Shown here piece after piece: positions 26,632-48,408 of a stretch of 64,000 nt of DNA. The stretch comes from Paramacrobiotus metropolitanus. Its lineage: Eukaryota > Tardigrada > Eutardigrada > Parachela > Macrobiotidae. Positions within the stretch are counted from its first letter, which is position 1; the number at the start of each line of letters is the position of its first letter. The position numbers and the translations under genes are program-made. The stretch covers positions 372,001-436,000 of the forward strand of contig NW_026570307.1 in assembly GCF_019649055.1 (NCBI RefSeq), written 5' to 3'. The notes beneath the pieces are model-generated. The model did not search any database, was not told the origin of the DNA, and worked only from the letters and a program-made list of their open reading frames with translations.

Positions 26632-27406
26632 AGGGCACTGATTTAACCGTGGGCACTTGGCAGTTCCATGCTCAACATGCATATGTTCGTCGTTGTTCTG
26701 CTTTTCTATTTCGCAAACTTTTACCTGATTATTTATACATGTACAAGCATTACGATCACGAGTGCACGGCGTGCTTTTGTGCTAATACGCGATTAATGAT
26801 GTCCAGCGAATCTGTTATAGTTTCTAGTGTTATACTGAAAGAAAAACTAAAACTTTTGGCCTAAATGCATAAAGTCGTGCAAACCCGGGAGATTCTTAAC
26901 AACAGTAGCGCGACTCCAATCTCATACACCCGGTCCACGCCTGTGTGTCCGCGTGTCATCGTTACACACGCTGACACATTGGACAAACTGCTCAACTGAA
27001 ATGATAGACATCATCAAAACGGGCCAAAAGTACTAAACCAACTCGGCGACCACAGTACCATGGCTACCTCATGCAACTAACATAGTCAAGTAACAAGTAG
27101 TGCCCTCATGTAATTACACTGCAACTACGCTGACAATACGTTCCATACATTGGCACCACTCGTGTGCAGGATTACAGCTCGTCTCGCCACGCGTTAGTAT
27201 CAATACCACAATGTTTGCCAGACGCAGAACTTGATGTTGTTTCGTTCGTTATTAATTTTTATTTATTTGAACTATTTCAGACGATTTTATGGTGCTCATT
27301 AGTCTTGTTAGACATTTTCTGGGTCCTTAATTGCCCTCTGTAACCCCGGCGGTTGATCGGTTGATTGGTAGTCCGTGGAACACTGAGGCTGAGCCTTCCA
27401 TTCAAC
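26632..27406. other. intergenic containing inverted-repeat arm A
   Basis: This lies between the His-rich gene and CLP1. Apart from the 140-nt repeat arm at 26854-26993, nothing is seen. Confidence 0.35.
26854..26993 (+). repeat. dispersed repeat, arm A (inverted relative to arm B)
   Basis: This 140-nt segment recurs in reverse complement at 31851-32010. About 112 nt, from GAGCAGTTTGTCC inward, are identical in both. The other end (GGCCTAAATGCATAAAGTC) also matches, but the two parts are joined by different linkers of about 4 and 25 nt. Confidence 0.95.
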
Positions 27407-30626: not shown

Positions 30627-33092
30627 ATGGCCAGAATCCCGGTTGCCTTGATTTGCCCGTTCCTGATTGTCCTCGTGTTCGTCGCTCAACAATGTAAGTT
30701 CATGCGCTCTTACATGTATGTCATTCGATAAACTTACATTGTTAGTCTAATTAATTCTGAACTTTTTTATGATTGCAACCATAATATTAAAGCGCGTATT
30801 TCTCTGGTCATGGCCTTATTGGTGATAAATGTTATAGCATTTCGGTACGGCAAATCCGCTAATTGATAATTTGCTGTCAAATACAGTATATATATTGGTG
30901 GTTGGTGCAAGTTCATAATAAAACACTGATCATGCAGTTGTCAGACACTGACTGATTACGAAATTACTATTACTACTATTATCAAAACATAAATTACTAT
31001 TAATAGTATAAAGCGTTTTCAGTAGTCAAGTATTCAGCTGTGGTACGTGTTATGTGTACATGATGAATTTTCGTAACCTACAATTGGTTCACTGACCTTA
31101 AATAAGCGTATAGGCATGGTATTGTAAGGTCAGAAATAATAACGAAATTACATTACTGCCTCAGTACAGACAATTTAAATTATTTTCTCCTCATAAAATT
31201 GATTGTTGTTTGATCTGGACTTTACCCATCCCGTGACCTTATAATTTATCCTCCGGATTACGCATAATCGCGTGTAATCTGGTGCAAATGCAAAAGCCGC
31301 CGGGCTGAATGCTTAACTACAACCAACACAGATTATGTTAAATTACAACAACCCGCCCTCGTTACAACATCATAACGGGTCACAGCTTTGGCATTCCCAA
31401 GTACGGTTTTACGTAGCACAAAATGAAACTGCGTATAGGTACAACTGTACGGGTACTACTGCATTCAGGCTTTGCACAACAGTTTTGTAAATATTTGACA
31501 TGAACCTGATTAGCAACTAATGTCTGGCCTATGTTATAAATTAACATAATTATTAGTGTACATAATCGTATGCTATCGGAACACCACGTTCACCAAGAGT
31601 AAGTGGGAACCCGAGTTAGGCGAGCACGAAATCTACCAGTTGGGAAGATCAGACTCGAGTTAGCATTTGATTTGGGCGGTGCAGTGTTTTTTCATGCTCG
31701 CCCAAGTAGGACTCACTTCCTGATACTCAGGCGACAACATATGTACCGATGCATGCCGGTGGTACAAATCGCCGTCGTAATGAGCTGATAATTACACTGC
31801 AGGATGAGCCACTAGCGGAAATATTGCACTGTGTTATACGATGCCCAGGAGAGCAGTTTGTCCAATGTGTCAGCGTGTGTAACGATGACACGCGGACACA
31901 CAGGCGTGGACCGGGTGTATGAGATTGGAGTCGCGCTACTGTTGTTAAGAATCTCCCGGGTTGTTGTTAAGATGTTGTGTTGTTAAGACTTTATGCATTT
32001 AGGCCAAAACAATGGCTGCTAGCATCACGTGTATCCGGTAATGGGAGACGCTGTTAATTTTTCTACACATCCTTAATTTTCAAGGTTGCCAAAATGCGTC
32101 TAACGTTATCCTTGAAAATTAATTAAGCCCTGTGTTATTCAATGGCCCCATGACGCACTCGCAAGGAGAAAATATAGAAAAGTTACTAGAACTCGATTAT
32201 GTACTAATTCCGGTGATGATTTTCAATTAATCTTTTCGCAGAATTCACTTTCACAAAATTAAAGTATCTTATTTTAAGACAGTAATATTCGATAACGCTA
32301 AGACATAATCTCTATTACAACACTACGATACGATATATGAACTGTATATCACAACATACAGATCGTAATTTTGTTTTCTGCATTCGAATGTTTACGAGGA
32401 CATTGTAAGTTATACAATTTACATAAACACCTATAAATCGGCGCATAATTGGTCACTACTCTATTATGTTTACAACATAATACCGTACTGAGCGCATAAG
32501 TATCGATAATAATTTTATATGGATTTGAACGTTTTGTGGAAAGCCCACAGTGCAGTTTTTATCATACTGTACAAAGTACGAGTACTTCGTGGAAAAAACG
32601 TCACTGACTCTGTTTTGTGAATCGCTTGCACCGTGAAGTATCGTAACCGTATTGTGTAATTTACTCTTAGGCTCAGCCAACTCCGGCGAGTACACCAACG
32701 TCAGAGCTGTCAGGAGGATGTCCAAGGGATGCGCTTTGTGGGGCCAGGCCTGTCTGGGAGGTAAGCGCGCGCACACACACGACGTACATTAATACACACA
32801 ATACTTCATCAAGCGCAACTGTCATAAATGTAATATTTACACATGCACACAAAATTAGCCGATATATTGAACCGGGATTATACGATGTGCTTAAGGTCAC
32901 TTCAAGAAGCGCTCCAATATCAACAGCCCTGATATCCAGGACGTCTTCTACCCATGGAGAAACTCCCAGTTGAACACTCCACCATTGTTCGACGACACGG
33001 AAACCGGGGCCGCTGGCGATATCTACAACAACAATCCGCTTAATAATTATCCGTGGAATGCCTATCGCTTTCGACGCTCGATCCGCGTTTAA
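30627..33092 (+). CDS. CCHamide-like neuropeptide precursor
   Basis: Three exons (30627-30693, 32671-32760, 32896-33092) join in frame to 117 residues. The first is a signal peptide (MARIPVALICPFLIVLVFVA). After a short spacer ending in RR comes the peptide MSKGCALWGQACLGGHF, closed by KKR. The Cys-x6-Cys spacing with GGH after the second Cys is the CCHamide pattern (C-x-x-x-G-x-x-C-x-GGH). Known CCHamides end GGH-Gly-Lys-Arg, and the Gly makes the amide; here Phe stands in its place. The long remainder (DVFYPWRNSQLN; NNNPLNNYPWNAYRFRR) has a second basic site near its end. An intron interrupts the peptide between the two Gly of GGH. Intron 1 is about 2 kb and carries repeat arm B. Confidence 0.75.
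31851..32010 (-). repeat. dispersed repeat, arm B (inverted relative to arm A)
   Basis: This is the reverse-complement copy of 26854-26993, inside intron 1 of the neuropeptide gene. The first 112 nt are identical. Then a GTTGTTAAG-rich linker of about 25 nt replaces the shorter linker of arm A before the shared end. Confidence 0.95.
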
Positions 33093-36700: not shown

Positions 36701-37035
36701 GATACCATAATTATTATCATAATTGTGCCCGAAAGATTTTTCTGCGGTAATTAAACCGGAATTAGCGGATCACGTGTCGAGACCCGGTATTTCCCAAAAC
36801 CCGGTAGTTGCTCCTGTTACTGATTGTTATTTTTCAGGAAATTCCTCTTACTGTAAGAATCATCAATATAGTATAAAATATTTCTGGGATCTCTCCATGA
36901 ATAGTAGCGATCATCCAAGCTTTGCGCTCCGAACGTACTAGTTCCCTCGCGTAATGCTGCGTAAGGCGGGAAGCTGATGACCATCGACAATACCGCGCGC
37001 GCACACAGAACGATGCCGGCAACGTACCACAACAT
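33768..37035 (-). CDS. secreted astacin-like pseudoprotease
   Basis: Six exons join in frame to 439 residues: 37035-36852, 36393-36252, 36159-35945, 35347-35111, 34770-34399 and 33937-33768. The N-terminus is a signal peptide (MLWYVAGIVLCARAVLSMVI). The astacin frame follows: WRDPRNILYYIDDSYS at the mature start, then MSVADNTNQCLHF, NGCMGSLRDLMRIIVNALGL, RNEYRRPDRDQYIDVYPDN and LSRDDCMGLAWMYGC. The zinc signature HExxHxxGxxHE is replaced by RIIVNALGLRNE: the three His are Arg, Asn and Asn, and the catalytic Glu is Ile. The Met-turn SxMHY has become SITMP. The rest of the fold, its Cys and the RxDRD segment persist. After it comes a Ser/Thr-rich, N-glycosylation-rich tail without CUB or EGF signs. 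Confidence 0.85.
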
Positions 37036-38005
37036 CTTTCGCTTGACCGGTACAATCCCTCCAAGCTCACAATAATTAACAAAATCTCGTTCGTGTTCTA
37101 GTGATCCTCACTATGTAATTATTCGTAAAATAAGGACCAGCTAAAAAACCCTTCCACAACACACATTTAAAACTGCAGAATTTCAACTGGCCGTTTTTTC
37201 CTTGCAGTGTGCAGTGCACTTTGTATCGCATTGGTTATGTTCTTGTTGCACTCATTCATATTATGCAATCGCTAATTATTTATAGTTATCAGCGTTATCC
37301 ACTACATCAAACACGTAGAAATGACTTTCTTCATCAATCGAATGGTTTGCGAACCAACAAGCCGTAACATCCTAACAGGTTTTCTTTTAATTCACTGTGG
37401 GAACATTTGTTTCTTAGTCGTTATGGAATGCTAACATGATTTACTAAATAGTGAACAGTGAACACCGCGTTGGCGTCTGGTGTGTATAAGAACATGAACC
37501 ACATTATGGTGTACAAATTGTATTTATACCGGTACGAGTAGTCCATTTTGTACCAATACGAGTATTTGTAACAATAAAAATAGATAAAATATTTTGTTGT
37601 TCGCGAATCTGTTTATCGAACTCCACTCAATTGCACCGTTAAAATGTTCTCACCATCCGTGTTACAAAGTACGCAGTACACTGTAGGAAAGCCGGATTTC
37701 GAATTTAAGTACGTACGTATTCATACGAAGAAATATTTATTATTATTCATACAGGTTTCTTCACTGCTTAATCAGTTACAATTCACGTTTCGAAAGTCGG
37801 CTGACTTCCAGAAATATAAAAACGTTAGCGAGATCGTAATAAAGTTATCACAGTGTGGCAAATGTGGACAACGTAAGAATCTGTAACTCAATCGAAACAA
37901 AAGAGAAGCCTTAATAACAGAATAACTGCGTACCATTGTAAGGGGATTAAAAGCATAAAACTTGAGGCTAATGACATCAGGATAAAAATCGAATACAATA
38001 TGTCG
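37036..38005. other. intergenic
   Basis: This is the promoter side of the pseudo-astacin and the 3' side of Maelstrom. A short frame at 37644-37886 on the plus strand has no supporting features. Nothing is called. Confidence 0.35.
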
Positions 38006-41000
38006 TTAAACATCCAAAATTAGACTCAGTGTTTCACTTTCTGAACGAACTTCGTCCGTATCTACCTTGCACTCGTCATCTACACCCGCCGGACGATGTT
38101 TTACAGAGAGCGAAATTCCTGCTTGGTCCTTCATCAGCTGGAACACATTGTATCTAAAAGTAAGACGTGGAACTGCGTAAAAATGTAATACTTTCCTTAA
38201 GTCCAACTATGTTTAATGCTTTCCATAATATATTGTACTTTGTATTTTGGTTAAGCTGGCATACTTAATTCATGAACTGTATACTGTCGAATCAAAAATT
38301 AATGCATGCATGCATTCCTTCGGTATTTTTGACACTATAAAAGACTGATATACAATAAAAAATATGGTGTTTTTCTAAAACGTAAAAAGTCGGTATGTTA
38401 TGTACAACAATAACTAGATACTCTGCTTACACAGTGAGTAGCGCCTTGGAACGCGCACAAACAATTTCAGGAGGGCGAGTTTCGTGGTAAGCGCACCTAC
38501 AAAAAGCAGAAATACCTATGCAAAATCTAAATTAATTGGCATTTCTTATTAGTGTTGGCTCAATTAAAGGCGCACCGTTGCAATCCAAAGGGTTCCTTGA
38601 GGTTCTCAACATTCACGCCCTCTTCGATCGTCTTCTCGTCACACGATATACCGAGTAAGCCAAAGATATGCCACAGTAGATGTTCCAGAGAACACACCAA
38701 TGGCAAATCCAATATGACATCTAAAATCTCGTGATTTAATTAATTTTTCTTCCAGTAACTCATTCAGTGATATTTTGATACATACATTACAGAATTGAGT
38801 ACGAACTGTCGAAATATGAGCTTCAAATAAACCAAAATTATCGTTGCTGAAATAATACAGGTTATGCGGACTTTTGACAAACGTACCTGTCTTAATGTTA
38901 TTGGCCTCTGCTTGTTCTACAGCTCTTTCACGCAGCCATACCAAACACTCCTTCACCATCTCACAGTCTTTTAGTAACGTAAAAATTAACGGTGGCACAT
39001 CATCGGTTCCGGAACTGTCGCGTAATAACTCTGTAATGGTTTGGAACATCTCTACATAATTGCAGCTGCGATTTATGCTTTTGAGAGCGGCGATGTCCCA
39101 GCCATCGTACTGTCGATCCAGTTCGATGCAGTCCAGTTCATACCGTGGATGAAACGGAATGAAACCTTCGTAGAGGATGTTATGGTGAAAATGCGCTGTG
39201 TCAATAAAAAATGAATGAATTAAAGTCAACAAACAACACACTAACCTCTTTTACTCTTTGAAAAACTGAATCAACTCAATAAAAAAAATTTATGTGACTT
39301 AAATGCAACGGTTACTCACTAAAAAACTGAAAGCAACTAACAACTATTCATGGTACCGTATTTTACTCTAAATGTTTACTGTCTATTCTTGTTCGTATAC
39401 TCGACTGTACTATTTACCCTGTTTCCAAGCGGCTTCACTAGCCTTTTCGACTGCCCGTTTGAATTCATCCGCTTTCAGTGTGTTGCCTTTGTTCTTTTGA
39501 TAAGCCATCCAATCCAGTGCGTCGCCGGCCAGCACAAACGAATGATAGGCCAAATCATCCAATCCGTTTTGCAGAGAAAACGAAGTCAAGTAAAATTCCA
39601 GAGGATTATGCACACACCTCACAGGGTTGGGGTCACTGCTCAAAGGAATACATGAAAACACGAAAATACGCTGAGAGAGGAAATCTAAAACCAAAAATAC
39701 ACAAGTAAGAATTAATACACATTAAAGTGATTAAACTACCACAAATTTACAGAACACAAGTAAAAAACTTGAGCTCGACACTGCAGTCTACAATACCATA
39801 TTCGCATTAAATAATTATTTTCCGTCTAAAATTCCGAAATTTTAACTTCAGAATACGAATAACTAATTTATGAATAGCAAGTTAACGGGAAGATAATCGT
39901 ATTAAACCAATTGAAAAATGCCAAAATAAATTAATAAGTATTGATAAGTTACAAAATGTAGGTAAAATCTTCGGTTTATTACTGTGCGGTAAATATCGCT
40001 CCGCCAGCTGATCCATCCACTTTTCCTCCGTATCCCTCTGCTCCGCTTGCTCAAGAATGTACAGCGCTCGCAGTGTCCCAACATCCTCCGCAGCAAAACG
40101 GCCTCGAATATACGGTAATTCCGACGGCGCAGACGGGTAGAACAGCTCCATCGCGTCCAGATCCGACATCCCCTTCAGACCGACCTTCTTCCGCACATCG
40201 TCCAAAGCATCACATTTTGCTACATATTCAGCAAGGATCTCTTCGGGCTTTCTTTCTGGTAATTCCTCGGTGTCGCTATCTTCCGGTGAGTGGCAATTAA
40301 GTTTTGCCCGTTCTTCACTCTTCATTCCCTGCAATTGTCAAACGGGTTATTTAAAATCAGTGATTTTAAGTACAAAACGCACGCTGACCAAAACGGAACA
40401 ACAATACAAATGGAAGTACACCAAAATTTAAATTTCACAGCAAAAAATAGCCGAATGGAAATTATTATAAAGACTGCAGTGGTACAACCGGTACGTAAAT
40501 ATTTTTCGGACAGTAAAACATAACAAAAACATTCAACAATCATCAATCCTTCAACGAAAACTCAAGTAGTAACTTTAAATGTAGTAGAATTTAGCTAGTA
40601 CTGTAGTGTAGAAGCAGTAAACTCCTAAAACAAGTACAATTTAACTTATAAAATAATATAACTTATATTAAAGTAATAATGTCGTAATGAACTGACAAAA
40701 ATCACCAAAATATCCGAAAAAAAAACAGCAGCGTGGAGCAAAATTTCGCTAACCTTACGATGCTTCATATCAAATTTTAATTTTATTTAGGTACAGTACA
40801 ATACAACATAGAGACTATAGATATGACAATATGTGTTGTAATGTGCAGAAGTGCGAATACAATAGAATCACCCTACTTGCCACATTTTGCCATATCTGGC
40901 ATTCGCGTAATCCTCTGGTCGCACGCCGCGTCGGCACTCTTTTTCCACCATAAGCGCGATGAAACGCGCATAGCCGCCTTTCGGCGTCGATGACCCGGTC

Positions 41001-41155
41001 CCGTTGGATCGTTTGGCGCCATTCGTGACAAAACGGTGCCCTGGATCGTAATCCTTCGTACGTTCGTCGTCTTCCCGTTGTCGAGGTGCAATGGGCAGAC
41101 TCTCCAGAAACCGCCTGTTGTCCAACTGCGAAACATGGCGCAGCTGTACAGGCAT
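38006..41155 (-). CDS. MAEL: Maelstrom (HMG box plus MAEL domain)
   Basis: Seven exons join in frame to 519 residues: 41155-40877, 40328-39983, 39684-39418, 39195-38887, 38720-38576, 38496-38431 and 38153-38006. The junction of exons 1 and 2 makes an HMG-box core: GGYARFIALMVEKECRR, then NARYGKMWQGMKSEERAKL. The MAEL domain follows: NPLEFYLTSFSLQNGLDDLA, HSFVLAGD, the FHHNI segment, VPPLIFTLLKDCEMVKECLVW, then QRCAYHETRPPEIVCARSKA and YNVFQLMKDQAGISL. The RC-x-H-E...C-A pattern matches the family's conserved Cys/His core (TRCKWHEEND..FCAL in mammals). Maelstrom acts in piRNA-guided transposon silencing in germ cells. It is head to head with Vasa. Confidence 0.82.
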
Positions 41156-41859
41156 CGTATGATCGTATGATCGTATCAATAGCACAAACCAAGCTATGCT
41201 CAAATCCTGACAAAAGTTGCGTAAAAAGCCATGAATTTACATAGATGATATCTTGATACCAAAATTTCTTCGAAAACGCACACAATTTTCGATTCCTGCG
41301 AACCTGGGAGAAAAAACTTGAAGCCAAAAAGCTCTAAAAGCAAGCAGTGAGAAGTGCAGACAAAGCCACAAAGGAGATCGAATAGATAAGAGGAAGCTGG
41401 TGTCTGCCGAGCTGCCAAGCATTTTTCCACGGTGATGCGAGTGACGTCGAATAGCAAAGCCCATTCCACTCACTGGGCAAATCGGTATTCCGCTTCGCCA
41501 ACAGGGCTTTTCCAGTGCGCGCCACGAAAAGATTCGTTTAATTTGCTGAGCAGTAGTGTGGCGCGCTTCTAACATTGCTGTACGTGGACGACTCGATATC
41601 GATCTCGAGTTCGGCAAGAGTAGAGTGGCCAACTGACAGCGGTGCCCTTTCGGTTCGAAAATTTTGCTTTGTCAGAATTTCATTTTTCGTTTTTCAGCTC
41701 CGGTTGTTGATCTCTTGATTTTCCAAACACGGAAGTCCCCACTTTTTATATTTCAGTTATCTGTTTGCTCTACAGTTCTATCTGCTCTTTTGTGCAACGC
41801 AGATTATTTAATCAATTAAGTGATCATCCTTTTGCAGTTTAACTCTCCGGAGCGCAAAC
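41156..41859. promoter_or_regulatory. bidirectional promoter region between Maelstrom and Vasa
   Basis: 704 bp separate the two start codons. No TATA box stands out on either side. The region contains a G+C-richer patch around 41400-41620 and CpG-containing blocks. A shared germline promoter is inferred from the arrangement, not from a known motif. Confidence 0.5.
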
Positions 41860-44800
41860 ATGAGTATACAAACGAAGGACCCCGATACAATGAACACATT
41901 GCTAATTTCTGCAGTTGTCAAAAGTAACGATGATTGGTTTCGCTTTTTCAGGTAGATTCGGATCTCGCTTTGGGTCGTCGGACACCACAGCGACAGCGGA
42001 AGCCACTTCAGAACCGCGATCCCGCTTCGGTGCCAGCAACGGCGCTGCCGAAGCGGATCCACCCAAAGAATCGCGTTTTGGCGGTTCCGGCGGCAATCCT
42101 CCTCCCACTCGGTCCCGCTTCGGCCGTAGCAGTGATCAGCCCAGTGGAGAAGAAAGCCAAGAATCGAAAATCGGTGGTGATCGTTCCGGAGACGATACGG
42201 GCTCCCGGCGTTCGCGATTCGGCGGCGGCGGTGGTAGTTCGCAGGATCAGAATAGAGCGGAAGAGCGGAAACCGTCGCGTTTTGGCCAGACGGATACGGG
42301 AGCGGGCGGGAATAATTCCAGCAGCGAAGGCCGACGGGGTGGCAGCCGATTTGGCGGCGGTGGCGATGCGGATGACAATCGATCAGATCAGCCGCGCAGC
42401 CGTTTTGGCAATCGGGACGACGGTAATCGGGGCGGGGGATCTCGTTTCGAAAGAAATTCAGAGGACCGCGGCGATCGCCAGCAGAATCGGGGAGACCGCG
42501 AGCAGGGTGGTTTCCGTGGCAACCGTGATGAGGATCGGAGTGATTTCCGTTCGGGCCACAACGAGCATGACGACCGTAGCGAGCGACCGCCCCGGGGAGG
42601 AGATGGCGACCGTGGGGAGCGACCAGCACGCGGAGGAGAAAGCGGGGAAGGGCAAGGTCAGCAACTAGAATTTCCATTGTACTTTTGTTTCCACCTCGGC
42701 AATCAACACTAGTAATTTTTCATTATTTCAACTGAATATTCTTAGCATTTTATTGAGTATTGTAAATGGAATATTGTAATAGGTAATTGTAAATCTTAGC
42801 ATTTAATCTGATTGCATTTGAATTAATGTCGTTTTTTCTACATAAAAACTAATTTAGCGCATTTATTGACATACTATTAATTTACGGGTGTTGACTGTGC
42901 TGATTAAATGCATATATGGCTTATGAACTTTACCAAGAGCAAGTGTATGTTTTATTTATTTATTTAGGTAGCAGTGATATGTAGGTAATAATTTTTAAAT
43001 TAATTAATACGTAACAAGATATCGAAATTACTGTAGCTCGAAAAAAACAATGGTTTCCGTGTGGCATTGATGTATGGTTATTTATGGATAATGACCGACA
43101 GTTGATTGAATTAGATTTGTATCGGATCGCTGGTAAGAGTAACCGCGAGCATGCTGAATGTTAACTTATTTATGAGCATTTTTTGTAGATTTTCGGCCAG
43201 TAGGTATCGCATTTTGAAATGATAGGTTAAAACAAAAAGAAAAGGGATGGTTTGAATTCAGCTAGAAGGTTTATCAAAAGGGCTAGAATTCTAGGCTTTC
43301 GCAAATCGTTTTTAATTACTGTTTTGTGTTATAGAATCTCGCCCTGCACCAGTGAACTACGTTCCTCCAGAACGGCCAACGGAGCGTGATGATCTTCGGA
43401 AGGAACACACCACAGCTGGCATCAATTTCAAAAAGTACGGAAATGTTCCTATTAACGTTTCCGGCAACATGCTGGAGAAGCCGGTGGACAGCTTCAAACA
43501 GTCAGGCTTACATCCGACCGTACTGGAAGCAGTGGAGTACATGAAATACGAGATTCCCACGCCGATCCAAAAATACTGCATTCCTGCCATTCTGTCCGGT
43601 CAGGATATAATGGCCTGCGCCCAGACAGGATCAGGGAAAACAGCCGGCTACTTGCTGCCGATCATTTCGCGCATGCTCAAGGACAACGTCCAGCCGGCTG
43701 AGCCAACAGGAAAAAGCTATCCACAGTGCTTGGTTCTGTGCCCCACGCGTGAACTGGCCTCCCAGGTGGACAAGGAAGCGGCAATCTACACGCACGGGAC
43801 CGGGCTGAAGTCTTTCGCGGTTTACGGCCAAACCGATGTGCGTTACATGGCCAACCATCTGCGGACGGGAGTCAACATCATTGCGGCCACCACCGGACGC
43901 CTGAAAGACACGCTGGAGAGGGGAATGATCAATTTGAGCAACCTCCAGTATTTGGTGTTGGACGAAGCGGATCGCATGCTGGATATGGGTAAATATATTT
44001 TGTTAGAATACTTTTCCTGGAGAATACGTACTTAAGTATTAATCGGAATTTGAACCACTTAATTCATGGCATGATATGCGTTTTTTTCACAGGCTTCAGT
44101 CAGGACATCGAACGCATCGTGGAGAACGCTAATATGCCCAAGAAGGAAAATCGTCTGACCCTGATGTTTTCCGCGACTTTTCCTGAAGTGGTTCAGACGC
44201 TGGCCCGGAACTTTTTACGTAAAGACTATCTGTTCATCGCCACCGGTATCCTTGGCGGCGCGTGCTGCGATGTGGAACAGGAGATTATTAAATGTGATGG
44301 AAGGTCCGAAAAAAGAGAGAAACTGGATGAAATTCTGGAGAAACGAAAGGAGCTGAACAATGGCCAGGTATGGATTTCTACTATTCTGATATTACGATTA
44401 GTTCAAGCGGTGAACTTGTTCTTGCTGTCAAGATTAATTTTGATTGGGCATTTGTTGCAGTATGAGAAGACACTTATTTTCGTTCAAACAAAAGAAGAGA
44501 CCGATAAACTGGGCCTCGAGCTTGCTTGCAACAATATTTCCAGCACCACCATACACGGAGGTCGCACTCAAGAACAACGCGAAATAGCCTTGGCTGATTT
44601 TAAGTCCGGCCGAAAGGCGGTACTGGTGGCCACTAACGTTGCTGCCCGTGGTAAGAAAACTTGATATTCTTGCCGCTTCCGATTGTAACTGTGTTTTTTC
44701 AGTAACTTCGGACATAATTGCATGTCTTGGTAAATTAATTCTTTGCAATCCCGTTACTTTGTGAGCTGTGTTTTACTGTTTTGTTAAATACGCTGTACTG

Positions 44801-46336
44801 TTGTTGTCTAATTACATGACGCTGTGCGGAAGTCACGGAAAAAATCCAAACGTTTTATAAGCTCGTAGAATTGCGAAATGTGACCTTGGAAGACGTTTTA
44901 ATGAGCTTTTTCTTCTTGCAGGTCTTGATATTCCGGACGTAAAGCATGTAATTAACTGGGATTTGCCGCGCAGTGCGGACGATATGGACGAATACGTTCA
45001 CCGTATTGGACGAACTGGCCGCGTCGGCAACCAGGGTATGGCTACCACTTTCTACACGTCTCGGGATGTCAACATTGCTCCGCGGCTGATCGACATCCTC
45101 CACGGCTCGGGAGCACGTGGTCCTGATTGGTTGTATGATGAAGCGGGAATGACACCCCCGGCACCGACGGGAGAGCGGCCAACAGCGACAAAAAGTTTTG
45201 GCGCCCAGGATAATCGTGTAAGAAAATAAGTGGTTTGGTACAGAATATATAAAAATGCGGACTAATAATATTGTACAGTATTGTAAGCCATCTTCCAGCT
45301 TCATGTTGCATCGTTCTACATCCATATTATTCTGTTTTTTGTTCGCTTCTCTTAGCACAGATATTTTTAGCGTTGTTTTATTTTGATTGCAGCGCTTCCC
45401 TGCAGATGATAAGTCAGAGGTAAGAGAAGCAGCGGTTACTTATTACGAGCGTGTCGATCTCAGTTTCACTTGTGTAATGAATTGAAGGAGTCTGGTCCTT
45501 GCCGATGGGAAACGTCTGATAAGGTCACTTTGGATTGATGGGATTGATAATTCGTGAAGTAAATACATGAATGGGTTTTTTGTGCAGGAGCAGCCAGCGT
45601 CGCAGCCACAACGAAGACGTTTCGGCGATTCTGGTGCCGCAAATCGTGACCAGGAAGGCGAGGTGAGTTTTGTTTAGGAATTACGACTGCTTCTTCGAAT
45701 TCAAGTCGGTACCTTGCGGATGAGTGATATCATAGCTTATTTCTATTGCGTTCGAATTCTGTCTTTAAATTTGTGACGGTGAACAGTGTTTATATTGTAG
45801 GGAAATCGCTCACAGTCCCGCAGCGATGCTGGTCGCAACGATCAAAAGGAAGAGGTGTGTTAGCACATGGCGATGTATCTGAAAAATGGTGTACAACAAT
45901 GCAAGTGTCTTAAAGATTGTCTTCGTTCTTTCAGGCGCCTGGCTCAGCGGCAAGCTCAGTATGGCTTTCTATTTACTCATTTTTGTTAAATTTTACTATG
46001 TTTTAAAATTAATTACATTAACAGTTTAAAATTTTCCGTGCGTAGGGAGTTGTAAATTATTTTTTCCTTTTCAGACTACTCGTACACGCTTTGGCTCAAA
46101 TCGAGGCAGCGAAAGTAAAGATGATAACGTAAGTATAACAATTACTTTCTTACCCCCTAAAAAACCACCGTGAGAGTTTTATACAGTCGCTGTTTTTCAG
46201 GCATCTGCTGGTGGAAGTGGCGAATCGGTAAGCTGTGGATACTGACACCAAAATTTTCCTACTTTTGAATAACAAGCTTTGCAAATATTAACGCGTCTTT
46301 TTTCTACAGAGAAGCCGCTTTGGAAGCCGCTTCTAA
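41860..46336 (+). CDS. vasa: Vasa (DDX4) DEAD-box RNA helicase with SRFG repeats
   Basis: Thirteen exons join to exactly 804 codons: 41860-41863, 41952-42656, 43335-43988, 44093-44367, 44461-44650, 44922-45217, 45393-45419, 45588-45662, 45801-45854, 45935-45958, 46075-46128, 46201-46227 and 46310-46336. Exon 1 is ATG plus one base. The N-terminus repeats SRFG about nine times, with RGG-like stretches. Helicase motifs: [39 protein letters not shown] and [20 protein letters not shown] after motif III is the Vasa form (DDX3/PL10 differs), so Vasa is preferred. The tail, split over small in-frame exons, ends RSRFGSRF. Vasa remodels RNA in germ granules and feeds the piRNA cycle. Confidence 0.88.
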
Positions 46337-47110
46337 TTGCAAACGGTAAATGTTGCTGAATCTTAATTTCGTCGCTTATTTCCATTTTCTGCAAGTTTTC
46401 TCATCGCTCTAGCAGCAACCGAAGCAGTTTGTGCTAGCTGCTGGGCATTATTACCATGACTGTTACTTTTTCAGTGTAGGAAAGGAAATAAGTATTTGAA
46501 TCTGTTATAATGGTAAAATTTTGCTTTTCAGCTGCCGATTTGTGGATGATAATCAACAGGCACTTCATTAGCGTTTCGGATTTACCGGAATTTATATCGC
46601 CTTTAATGGATGAATCGCTCATCGACGTCGCGTTTTCATTGTATGGGTTAGTTGGCAGTTGTGGTAAAATCAGCTTTTGACACAGTTTGTCGATCGCATT
46701 ATTATGATCCTGGACTTCTGTTTCCTTTTTTTTGCTGCTAAAACTTGGTTCTTTTTTTTGTTATTATATGCCCAGATTGTTTGTGGATTCTGAATTCTGT
46801 GTTGCACTCCCTCTTTACAGTGTTTCTGCTGATATCGGATTTTGCATTTCACCTGTAAAAACAAATGTTACGAGAGAAGTGTTGTTTCCAAGCAATGGTA
46901 TTAAAATTATTCTCATTGATCGCGCGTGGGGTGGAAAGCGCTGAGACTGTCAAGTCCAGTTTGCAATAATCCGCTGTAGTACTTTCTGAATTCGTAAAAA
47001 ATGCGAAAGAAAATTTGGGAATTGGAACAGTCGAGTCAGATTATTCGTACTAAATAATTATGCAGCATTTTACCGGCTTCCTTTGTAATGCTTAGAGGTT
47101 CCTTGAATTT
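46337..47110. other. intergenic
   Basis: This lies between the Vasa stop and the aquaporin start, both on the plus strand. It should hold the Vasa 3' UTR and the aquaporin promoter; no gene is seen. Confidence 0.35.
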
Positions 47111-48408
47111 ATGGACGTAATGGAAGATCTTTTCCGCAGTGGTGTGAATACCCCGTTAGGTTCGTTTATCCAACAGGTATTGTTAACGGAAGCAACGGTA
47201 TTAGGTGTTCAGAATCTTCCAGGTGGCCGTTATCCGTTTATTGAGGAATTTTTCTATACATTCCAAGCATCAGTGCTGGGTCATGAGTTGGGTGTAATTA
47301 AAAAAGTGTACGGACCGGGACCGTATGCAGTGGGTTTTTTCTTACTCACCGTGCTGTATGCAATGACTTACTATCCCAATATTTATGCAAATTCCGCCAG
47401 TACGATCCATAAATTTGCGCATGAAAAACGAATGACCGTGCTGGAGTTAGCGGTGCATCTGTCGGTGCAGATTAGTGCGTGTCTAGTGGCACATCAGTAT
47501 GTGAATTGGGTATGGTCGTCGGAAATATTCCATTCGTTGGTCCTGCATTGGGATCCCCTGAGTCCCTGTAAAACGGACATTAAGGTTTGCAATTTTATGT
47601 TACTGGTAATCAGTTATATTTCCTTTATTATTTTTTGAATATGCTTCTGTACTTGGATCAGAATCTCGGTAATATTGTTTATTAAATGTACTCGTGTATG
47701 TACTTCATACTGGACTTCATACTGGATTTAAATTTTATACTGGAAGTAATTCATACGAGTACTGGATTTAAATTTTGTGACAGTAAAGCGATTTATTATC
47801 AATTTTGTACATCCGAAAACAGCAGATTTCAATTTCAGGTTCCATTGCCGTTAGCAATAACGGTTGAGGCAACTTTGACCTTTGCGGCGAAATTATTTGG
47901 TCATGGGAAAAGCCAGCTGCCCTTGGGCCTGTTATTACACTGCGCTGTTATTTTGGGCCTTTCTCTTATTGGTGAGAAAATTATCAAGAATGGGTTTTTA
48001 AATTTTTTAAATTTACTGCCTGTCGAATCTCGGTGTGTAATTTACTTACAATGACGTAACTGCATTGAGTGTTAATCCAGCTGACAATGAGTGTTAATCC
48101 GGCTGACAATGAGTGTTAATCCATACGTAAAGCAAAGAACATCCACCTAATAAAATGATTGACGAAAATTTTTATTCTCATAATCAAATTCTTATCAGCT
48201 GTTTATTATTAAGTACTTGTTAGAACTGGTGCTCTGTTTTTCAGGTGGACCATATACGGGCGGATATTTTAACCCGAGTTTGGCGTTTAGCTTGCAATAT
48301 CGATGTAATGGTCATACAGATGCAGAATTTTTTGCAGTATACTTTCTCGGTCCGACTATTGGTGCATTTTTTCTGGAGAATATGCCGATAGAATATGGAA
48401 AAAAATAA
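47111..48408 (+). CDS. superaquaporin (AQP11/12-like) with altered NPA boxes
   Basis: Three exons (47111-47584, 47839-47971, 48245-48408) join in frame to 256 residues with about six membrane helices. The second pore loop reads GGPYTGGYFNPSLAFSL, so NPA is NPS; vertebrate AQP11 has TGAVFNPALALSL at this place, and the next helix (AEFFAVYFLGPTIGAFF) aligns with FPQFFIVYWLAPSLGI. The first pore loop is YPNIYANSASTIHKF, where AQP11/12 have NPC or NPT; here it is NSA. Superaquaporins are usually intracellular and carry water, glycerol or peroxide. The protein ends shortly after helix 6. A 22-bp tandem repeat sits in intron 2. Confidence 0.8.
48067..48122. repeat. 22-bp tandem repeat, 2.5 copies
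   Basis: The unit GAGTGTTAATCCAGCTGACA plus two bases occurs at 48067-48088 and 48089-48110 (one A to G change), with a 12-nt partial third copy. It lies in the second intron of the aquaporin gene. Confidence 0.85.

Follow-up and report, generated by a model that had tools for sequence, protein, structure and literature searches.

The 64,000-nucleotide stretch of the Paramacrobiotus metropolitanus genome analysed here (G000:C87:372001-436000, hereafter the window) carries a Vasa gene on the plus strand and a Maelstrom-like gene on the minus strand, which point away from each other. In the spliced models, both of which run from ATG to stop, the two start codons are 704 bp apart. This head-to-head order had been proposed in a preliminary description of the window and it was borne out: both genes lie where they had been placed, and the divergent arrangement is real. 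The animal is most likely a eutardigrade: SAHS1 of Ramazzottius (PDB chain 5xn9), a member of a family not known outside eutardigrades, has 14 exon matches in this genome at 33-64% identity, and 13 of these cluster at C3:446-467 kb. The whole genome, comprising 169,799,020 bases in 533 contigs, was searched for relatives of the pair, and the window copies were the sole complete Vasa gene and the sole open Maelstrom-like gene found. The Maelstrom-like protein of the window gave 12 matches, all in two places on contig C87. The Vasa core gave at least 75 exon matches, many of which are other DEAD-box genes (95 of the 103 candidates were scored), and a second complete Vasa was rejected, as the searches gave partial pieces only. 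The Pfam profile PF13017 and the Bombyx and human MAEL domains gave no second Maelstrom outside contig C87, which shows little, since these queries also missed the gene in the window. The preliminary description had not included that an inverted second copy of the pair is present.

Identity of the two genes

The plus-strand gene is well supported as Vasa. Its first coding exon consists of ATG plus one base (ATGA) and is followed by an 88-bp intron. An unspliced read from the first ATG runs into a stop, and this intron resolves the problem. The protein starts with MSRFGSRFG and finishes with RSRFGSRF; its N-terminal tail found no match in NCBIfam, while the helicase domains match Pfam DEAD (4.2e-45) and Helicase_C (2.9e-32). 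Among the best 60 of 207 PDB matches, Drosophila Vasa scored 386.8 bits, Bombyx Vasa 374.8 and DDX3X 368.4, and the DEAD-box core aligns to Drosophila Vasa across 437 residues. A GGACxDV-type motif in Vasa as opposed to GSTSENITQ in PL10 distinguishes the two families. The window gene encodes GGACCDVEQ, where insect Vasas have GGACSDV and GGASTDV. GSTSENITQ is found in DDX3X and in a separate PL10/DDX3 gene on contig C38 of the same genome, which is 67% identical to DDX3X (longest piece 133 residues). That the plus-strand gene might instead be DDX3/PL10, the objection raised in the preliminary description, was rejected, as PL10 is encoded on contig C38. In a tree of 6 sequences with a partial outgroup, the window Vasa joins the insect Vasas at low support, separate from DDX3X and from the C38 gene.

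The minus-strand gene is very probably Maelstrom, an identity for which the profile evidence gives moderate support (for background on Maelstrom, see the available parts of PMC2628886 and PMC4408791). In a whole-Pfam scan, in which the cut-off of PF13017 is 22 bits, part of this profile was matched by the 529-amino acid model (E=9.9e-5, 22.6 bits) and by the 518-amino acid model (E=2.6e-5, 24.5 bits). Exon 4 covers profile positions 66-117 of 215 in the former; in the latter, positions 66-129 are covered and the match extends into exon 5. The 518-amino acid model has an additional 40-nt intron at 38886-38847. Three observations favour its junction: the Pfam score is higher (24.5 as against 22.6 bits), the two genomic copies have different letters at 6 of the 40 nt, and the reading frame beyond this intron carries conservative changes. 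The acceptor before 38727 is weak, and therefore exons 4-6 are unsettled. A profile was also made from the Maelstrom sequences of human, Bombyx and Drosophila. Its three segments were correctly ordered in all four gene models tried, with low scores: -1.7 to -2.3 bits for the HMG segment, 3.3-3.7 for the first MAEL strand and 12.8-13.9 for the middle segment.

The preliminary description had based the Maelstrom identity on an HMG box and a Cys/His core, of which the core is only partly there. The HMG-like segment resembles the human and Bombyx sequences in the alignment, but its score on its own is negative, and Pfam gave no HMG family for the protein at E<=1. The ECHC zinc ligands of Maelstrom are described in the part of PMC4408791 that was available. 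In the alignment of the 518-amino acid model, the only one of the four scored models that was so aligned, the Glu and the first Cys are in register (PLEF, GISC) in a region that spans the unsettled exon 4-6 junctions, but no counterpart of the His or of the last Cys was found.

The inverted second copy and further vasa pieces

An inverted copy of window positions 37016-47309 lies at C87:248904-257065, about 160 kb away and about 90% identical. The aligned stretches are 37016-41992 (90.4%), 42356-42809 (93.3%), 43270-43414 (89.7%) and 46330-47309 (85.7%). The head-to-head pair was at some time copied as a block. The same gene order is present at the second locus, and since the junction occurs twice, a misassembly is unlikely. 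The Maelstrom counterpart (MAEL2) has two frameshifting deletions, one of 8 nt in exon 3 and one of 1 nt in exon 5. The Vasa counterpart (vasa2) lacks window positions 41993-42355 and 42810-43269, and about 1.6 kb of other DNA replaces positions 43415-46329, which hold most of the helicase core. Its start codon is retained, as is a portion of the N-terminal tail, in which 100 codons contain 8 synonymous changes and 1 non-synonymous change. For the Maelstrom copies, the non-synonymous (dN) and synonymous (dS) divergences are 0.034 and 0.072 by NG86 and 0.037 and 0.058 by YN00, over 510 codons with gapped codons left out; the resulting dN/dS of about 0.5 says little as a sign of constraint.

Three further loci carry partial vasa pieces: C131:254985-258581, C59:679424-679712 and C87:363568-365890. 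The last of these has the same replacement of 43415-46329 as vasa2 and, because the replacement DNA is common to both, it probably arose from the second copy or from the source of that copy. In the C131 and C59 pieces the beginning of the core is missing, and the C131 pieces may not be dead. Between the window Vasa and C131, a first comparison gave dN 0.109 and dS 0.590 (90 codons, 8 unaligned) and a second gave dN 0.154 and dS 0.684 (62 codons, 1 unaligned). The comparison with C59 gave dN 0.094 and dS 0.474 (77 codons; 20 unaligned and 1 stop left out), and a second exon tried on C59 gave no alignment. Going by these ratios, the window Vasa looks maintained by purifying selection. The partial vasa loci may be sources of vasa-matching small RNAs. 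The Piwi domain gave 57 exon matches over many contigs, with Ago and Piwi pooled, suggesting a sizeable Argonaute/Piwi family.

Table 1. Coordinates of the divergent pair, its parts and its second copy; positions without a contig name are those of the window.
Feature	Position	Strand	Remarks
Intergenic region	41156..41859	.	704 bp, start codon to start codon; presumed site of both promoters; two genomic copies; 43/683 compared sites differ
Maelstrom-like gene	38006..41155	-	Spliced translations; PF13017 above cut-off in both models; open frame, unlike the frameshifted second copy
Maelstrom-like exons common to both models	41155-40877, 40328-39983, 39684-39418, last 38153-38006	-	
Middle exons, 529-amino acid model	39195-38791 + 38720-38576	-	All introns GT-AG
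Middle exons, 518-amino acid model	39195-38887 + 38846-38791 + 38727-38576	-	One weak acceptor
Maelstrom-like exon 4	38887..39195	-	Middle MAEL domain (NYVEMFQTITELL...VPPLIFTLLKDCEMVKECL), best-scoring stretch; hhalign 44 columns
HMG-box-like segment	40292..40978	-	GYARFIALMVEKECRRG...MWQ|GMKSEERAKLN, split by intron 1; alignable with the Maelstrom HMG box of human and Bombyx
Vasa (DDX4) gene	41860..46336	+	13 exons, 803 amino acids, all introns GT-AG; spliced translation, Pfam, PDB, motif, tree
Vasa exons 1-7	41860-41863, 41952-42656, 43335-43988, 44093-44367, 44461-44650, 44922-45217, 45393-45419	+	
Vasa exons 8-13	45588-45662, 45801-45854, 45935-45958, 46075-46128, 46201-46227, 46310-46336	+	
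Vasa helicase-core exons	43335..45217	+	GGACCDVEQ at 44254-44280; dN/dS ~0.2 vs C131/C59 pieces
MAEL2	C87:252934-256060	+	Counterparts of Maelstrom exons
Intergenic copy	C87:252231-252935	-	91% identical to window intergenic region
vasa2 start	C87:252097-252230	-	Counterpart of vasa start

The other open reading frames of the window are ordinary neighbours. Nine of the 20 that were compared with Pfam scored at or above the family cut-off, the families being BACK, BTB, LANC_like, Pkinase, 7tm_1, CLP1_P, CLP1_N, DEAD/Helicase_C and ATG5_UblB. Rfam at the gathering threshold and ARAGORN gave no matches over the window. Contig C87 carries several local duplications. The BTB/BACK gene region at window positions 5110-6702 matches, at 74-97%, DNA that flanks the third vasa piece, shortly before the start of the window. 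The CLP1 gene region is enclosed by a perfect inverted repeat of 112 bp (26882-26993 / 31851-31962, about 4.9 kb apart).

The intergenic region and the origin of the arrangement

The preliminary description had suggested a shared germline promoter and a possibly ancient co-regulated unit, for which no support was found. Between the two copies, 43 of 683 intergenic sites differ (6.3%), as compared with 81 of 1447 (5.6%) for introns 1, 2 and 3 and the last intron, a sum that leaves out the 70-nt intron (3 of 70 differ) and the 40-nt intron. No significantly conserved stretch was found in the 704 bp when the copies were compared by shuffling, with P values of 0.57, 0.26, 0.28, 0.17 and 0.0948 for stretches of 60, 100, 120, 150 and 200 bp, respectively. 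The GC content (0.435) and CpG ratio (1.14) are ordinary, with ranks of 75% and 56%, respectively, among the 704-bp stretches of the window. The initiator-like TCAGTT occurs once per strand (41753, 41631) and TATAAA lies on the minus strand at 41745; within 704 bp, such occurrences mean little. Nothing that was found shows joint regulation of the pair or old age of the arrangement.

The best reading is that of a real divergent pair which is lineage-restricted or due to chance. Most probably, the pair came together in the tardigrade lineage and was later copied as a block, of which the copy decayed. The promoters of both genes presumably lie within the 704 bp, in which case one stretch of open chromatin would be common to both genes, perhaps with partial co-expression in germ cells. 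The adjacency would most likely stem from ordinary rearrangement within that lineage, in a genome of fairly high gene density, rather than from a selected unit of the PIWI-interacting RNA (piRNA) pathway. A later segmental duplication copied 37016-47309 in inverted orientation, after which the Vasa copy lost most of the helicase core and the Maelstrom copy gained its two deletions. The available part of PMC11191345 gives a density of roughly 30 genes per 200 kb for P. metropolitanus, therefore about 25,000 genes. At that density, close divergent neighbours are no surprise. Assuming that one in four neighbours is divergent and that there are about 30 germline/piRNA genes, about 0.01 divergent neighbours would be expected among these by our estimate. 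One such pair per genome is mildly unusual, and chance is a reasonable explanation since many gene pairs get looked at.

Several observations count against this account. The support for the Vasa grouping in the tree of 6 sequences is low (65% ultrafast bootstrap in IQ-TREE, 0.761 local support in FastTree). The window Vasa is 50.0% identical to Drosophila Vasa, 48.3% to DDX3X, 47.7% to the C38 gene and 46.8% to Bombyx Vasa, so that DDX3X comes before one of the insect Vasas. Two letters of the GG and TPGR core motifs depart in exon 43335-43988 (VYGQ for VYGG, ATTGR for ATPGR), although the gene still looks maintained; moreover, constraint on the Vasa domains is not a sign of expression. With regard to Maelstrom, the PF13017 match is marginal, hhalign against three known MAEL domains gave a probability of 19% (P=0.0012, 44 columns), an exon-wise PF13017 search of the genome (3 candidates scored) gave nothing at E<=0.001, the 529-amino acid model matched no PDB chain at E<=10, and two of the four zinc ligands are missing from the aligned model. 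Finally, no direct evidence bears on co-regulation, which leaves room for a selected unit.

Such a unit, in which one bidirectional promoter in the 704 bp serves both genes and the adjacency is conserved across tardigrades, is rather unlikely. The close divergent spacing would fit it, as would the placing of both families in the piRNA pathway (Maelstrom, PMC4408791; Vasa, PMC10378496; available parts of both), the Piwi-domain exons of the genome and the marking of Hypsibius exemplaris primordial germ cells by He-vasa (available part of PMC13120685). It is opposed by an intergenic divergence that is not below that of the four introns, by the P values of 0.09-0.57 for conserved stretches and by the ordinary GC and CpG. 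The Maelstrom and Vasa genes of human and Drosophila are not known to be linked, which was also counted against it.

Somewhat less probable still is that the minus-strand gene encodes a fast-evolving protein that is unrelated to Maelstrom and matches the profile by chance. A PF13017 score barely over the cut-off, the low hhalign probability and the negative score of the HMG segment would fit this reading; in addition, the MAEL domain of Bombyx and that of human, each used as a single query, match nothing in the genome at E<=10, the window gene included. The whole-Pfam E value of 2.6e-5 and the correct order of the HMG-like, EFxxxxxSLQxG and middle segments argue for Maelstrom, and no better candidate turned up in the genome, although empty searches do not prove absence. 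In a more elaborate scheme, which we regard as very improbable, the pair would form a germline module that regulates itself. Vasa and Maelstrom would be driven by one bidirectional promoter, and the decayed copy and the three partial vasa loci would give antisense small RNAs acting on the intact pair, by analogy with AT-chX acting on some vasa alleles in Drosophila hybrids. An assembly artefact was rejected: local duplications such as those on this contig can mislead assemblers, but the same junction is found twice, at loci that were assembled separately and whose sequences diverge at several percent of sites.

Should other tardigrades prove to have kept the adjacency, two germline genes of the piRNA pathway would, unusually, be bound to a single promoter region; if not, it is an ordinary close divergent pair. 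No description of a divergent Maelstrom/Vasa pair was found in the titles and the beginnings of abstracts of the papers listed on maelstrom, vasa, tardigrade germline, piRNA/argonaute and bidirectional promoters. A word search of the main text of PMC11191345, on the sex transcriptome of P. metropolitanus, found neither vasa nor maelstrom, and the available part of PMC7943196 has nothing on vasa or Maelstrom. Tardigrade germ-cell genes are little studied. The present analysis contributes exact gene models, a corrected picture of the Maelstrom Cys/His core and a duplicate-and-decay history that eases tests with existing species.

Comparison with known systems

The pair resembles gene pairs with bidirectional promoters in that its start codons are less than 1 kb apart, at 704 bp, and on opposite strands. 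It differs from them in showing no sign of shared-promoter constraint, and it is known here from sequence alone. According to the available part of PMC11172174, the AT-chX repeats of Drosophila melanogaster are homologous to vasa and give rise to piRNAs. The present case is similar in that extra partial vasa copies exist in the genome; the vasa link is not stated in the part of PMC8412364 that was available. In P. metropolitanus there are four loci with pieces, no repeat array was seen, and the pieces are known from the genome rather than from small RNAs.

The minus-strand protein is like Maelstrom (MAEL) in that it starts with an HMG-like segment, after which the stretches of the MAEL domain come in the expected order, with the Glu and first Cys of ECHC aligned. 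It differs in its insertions, in the zinc-site His and last Cys, for which the aligned model gave no counterpart, and in an overall similarity that is barely detectable. Compared with Vasa/DDX4 helicases, the window Vasa has a long branch, GQ for GG, TTGR for TPGR and SRFG repeats at both ends, and lacks their acidic WD/WE end; it shares with them the helicase core, the GGACxDVEQ-type motif, a long Gly/Arg-rich N-terminal tail and the presence of a separate PL10 in the genome.

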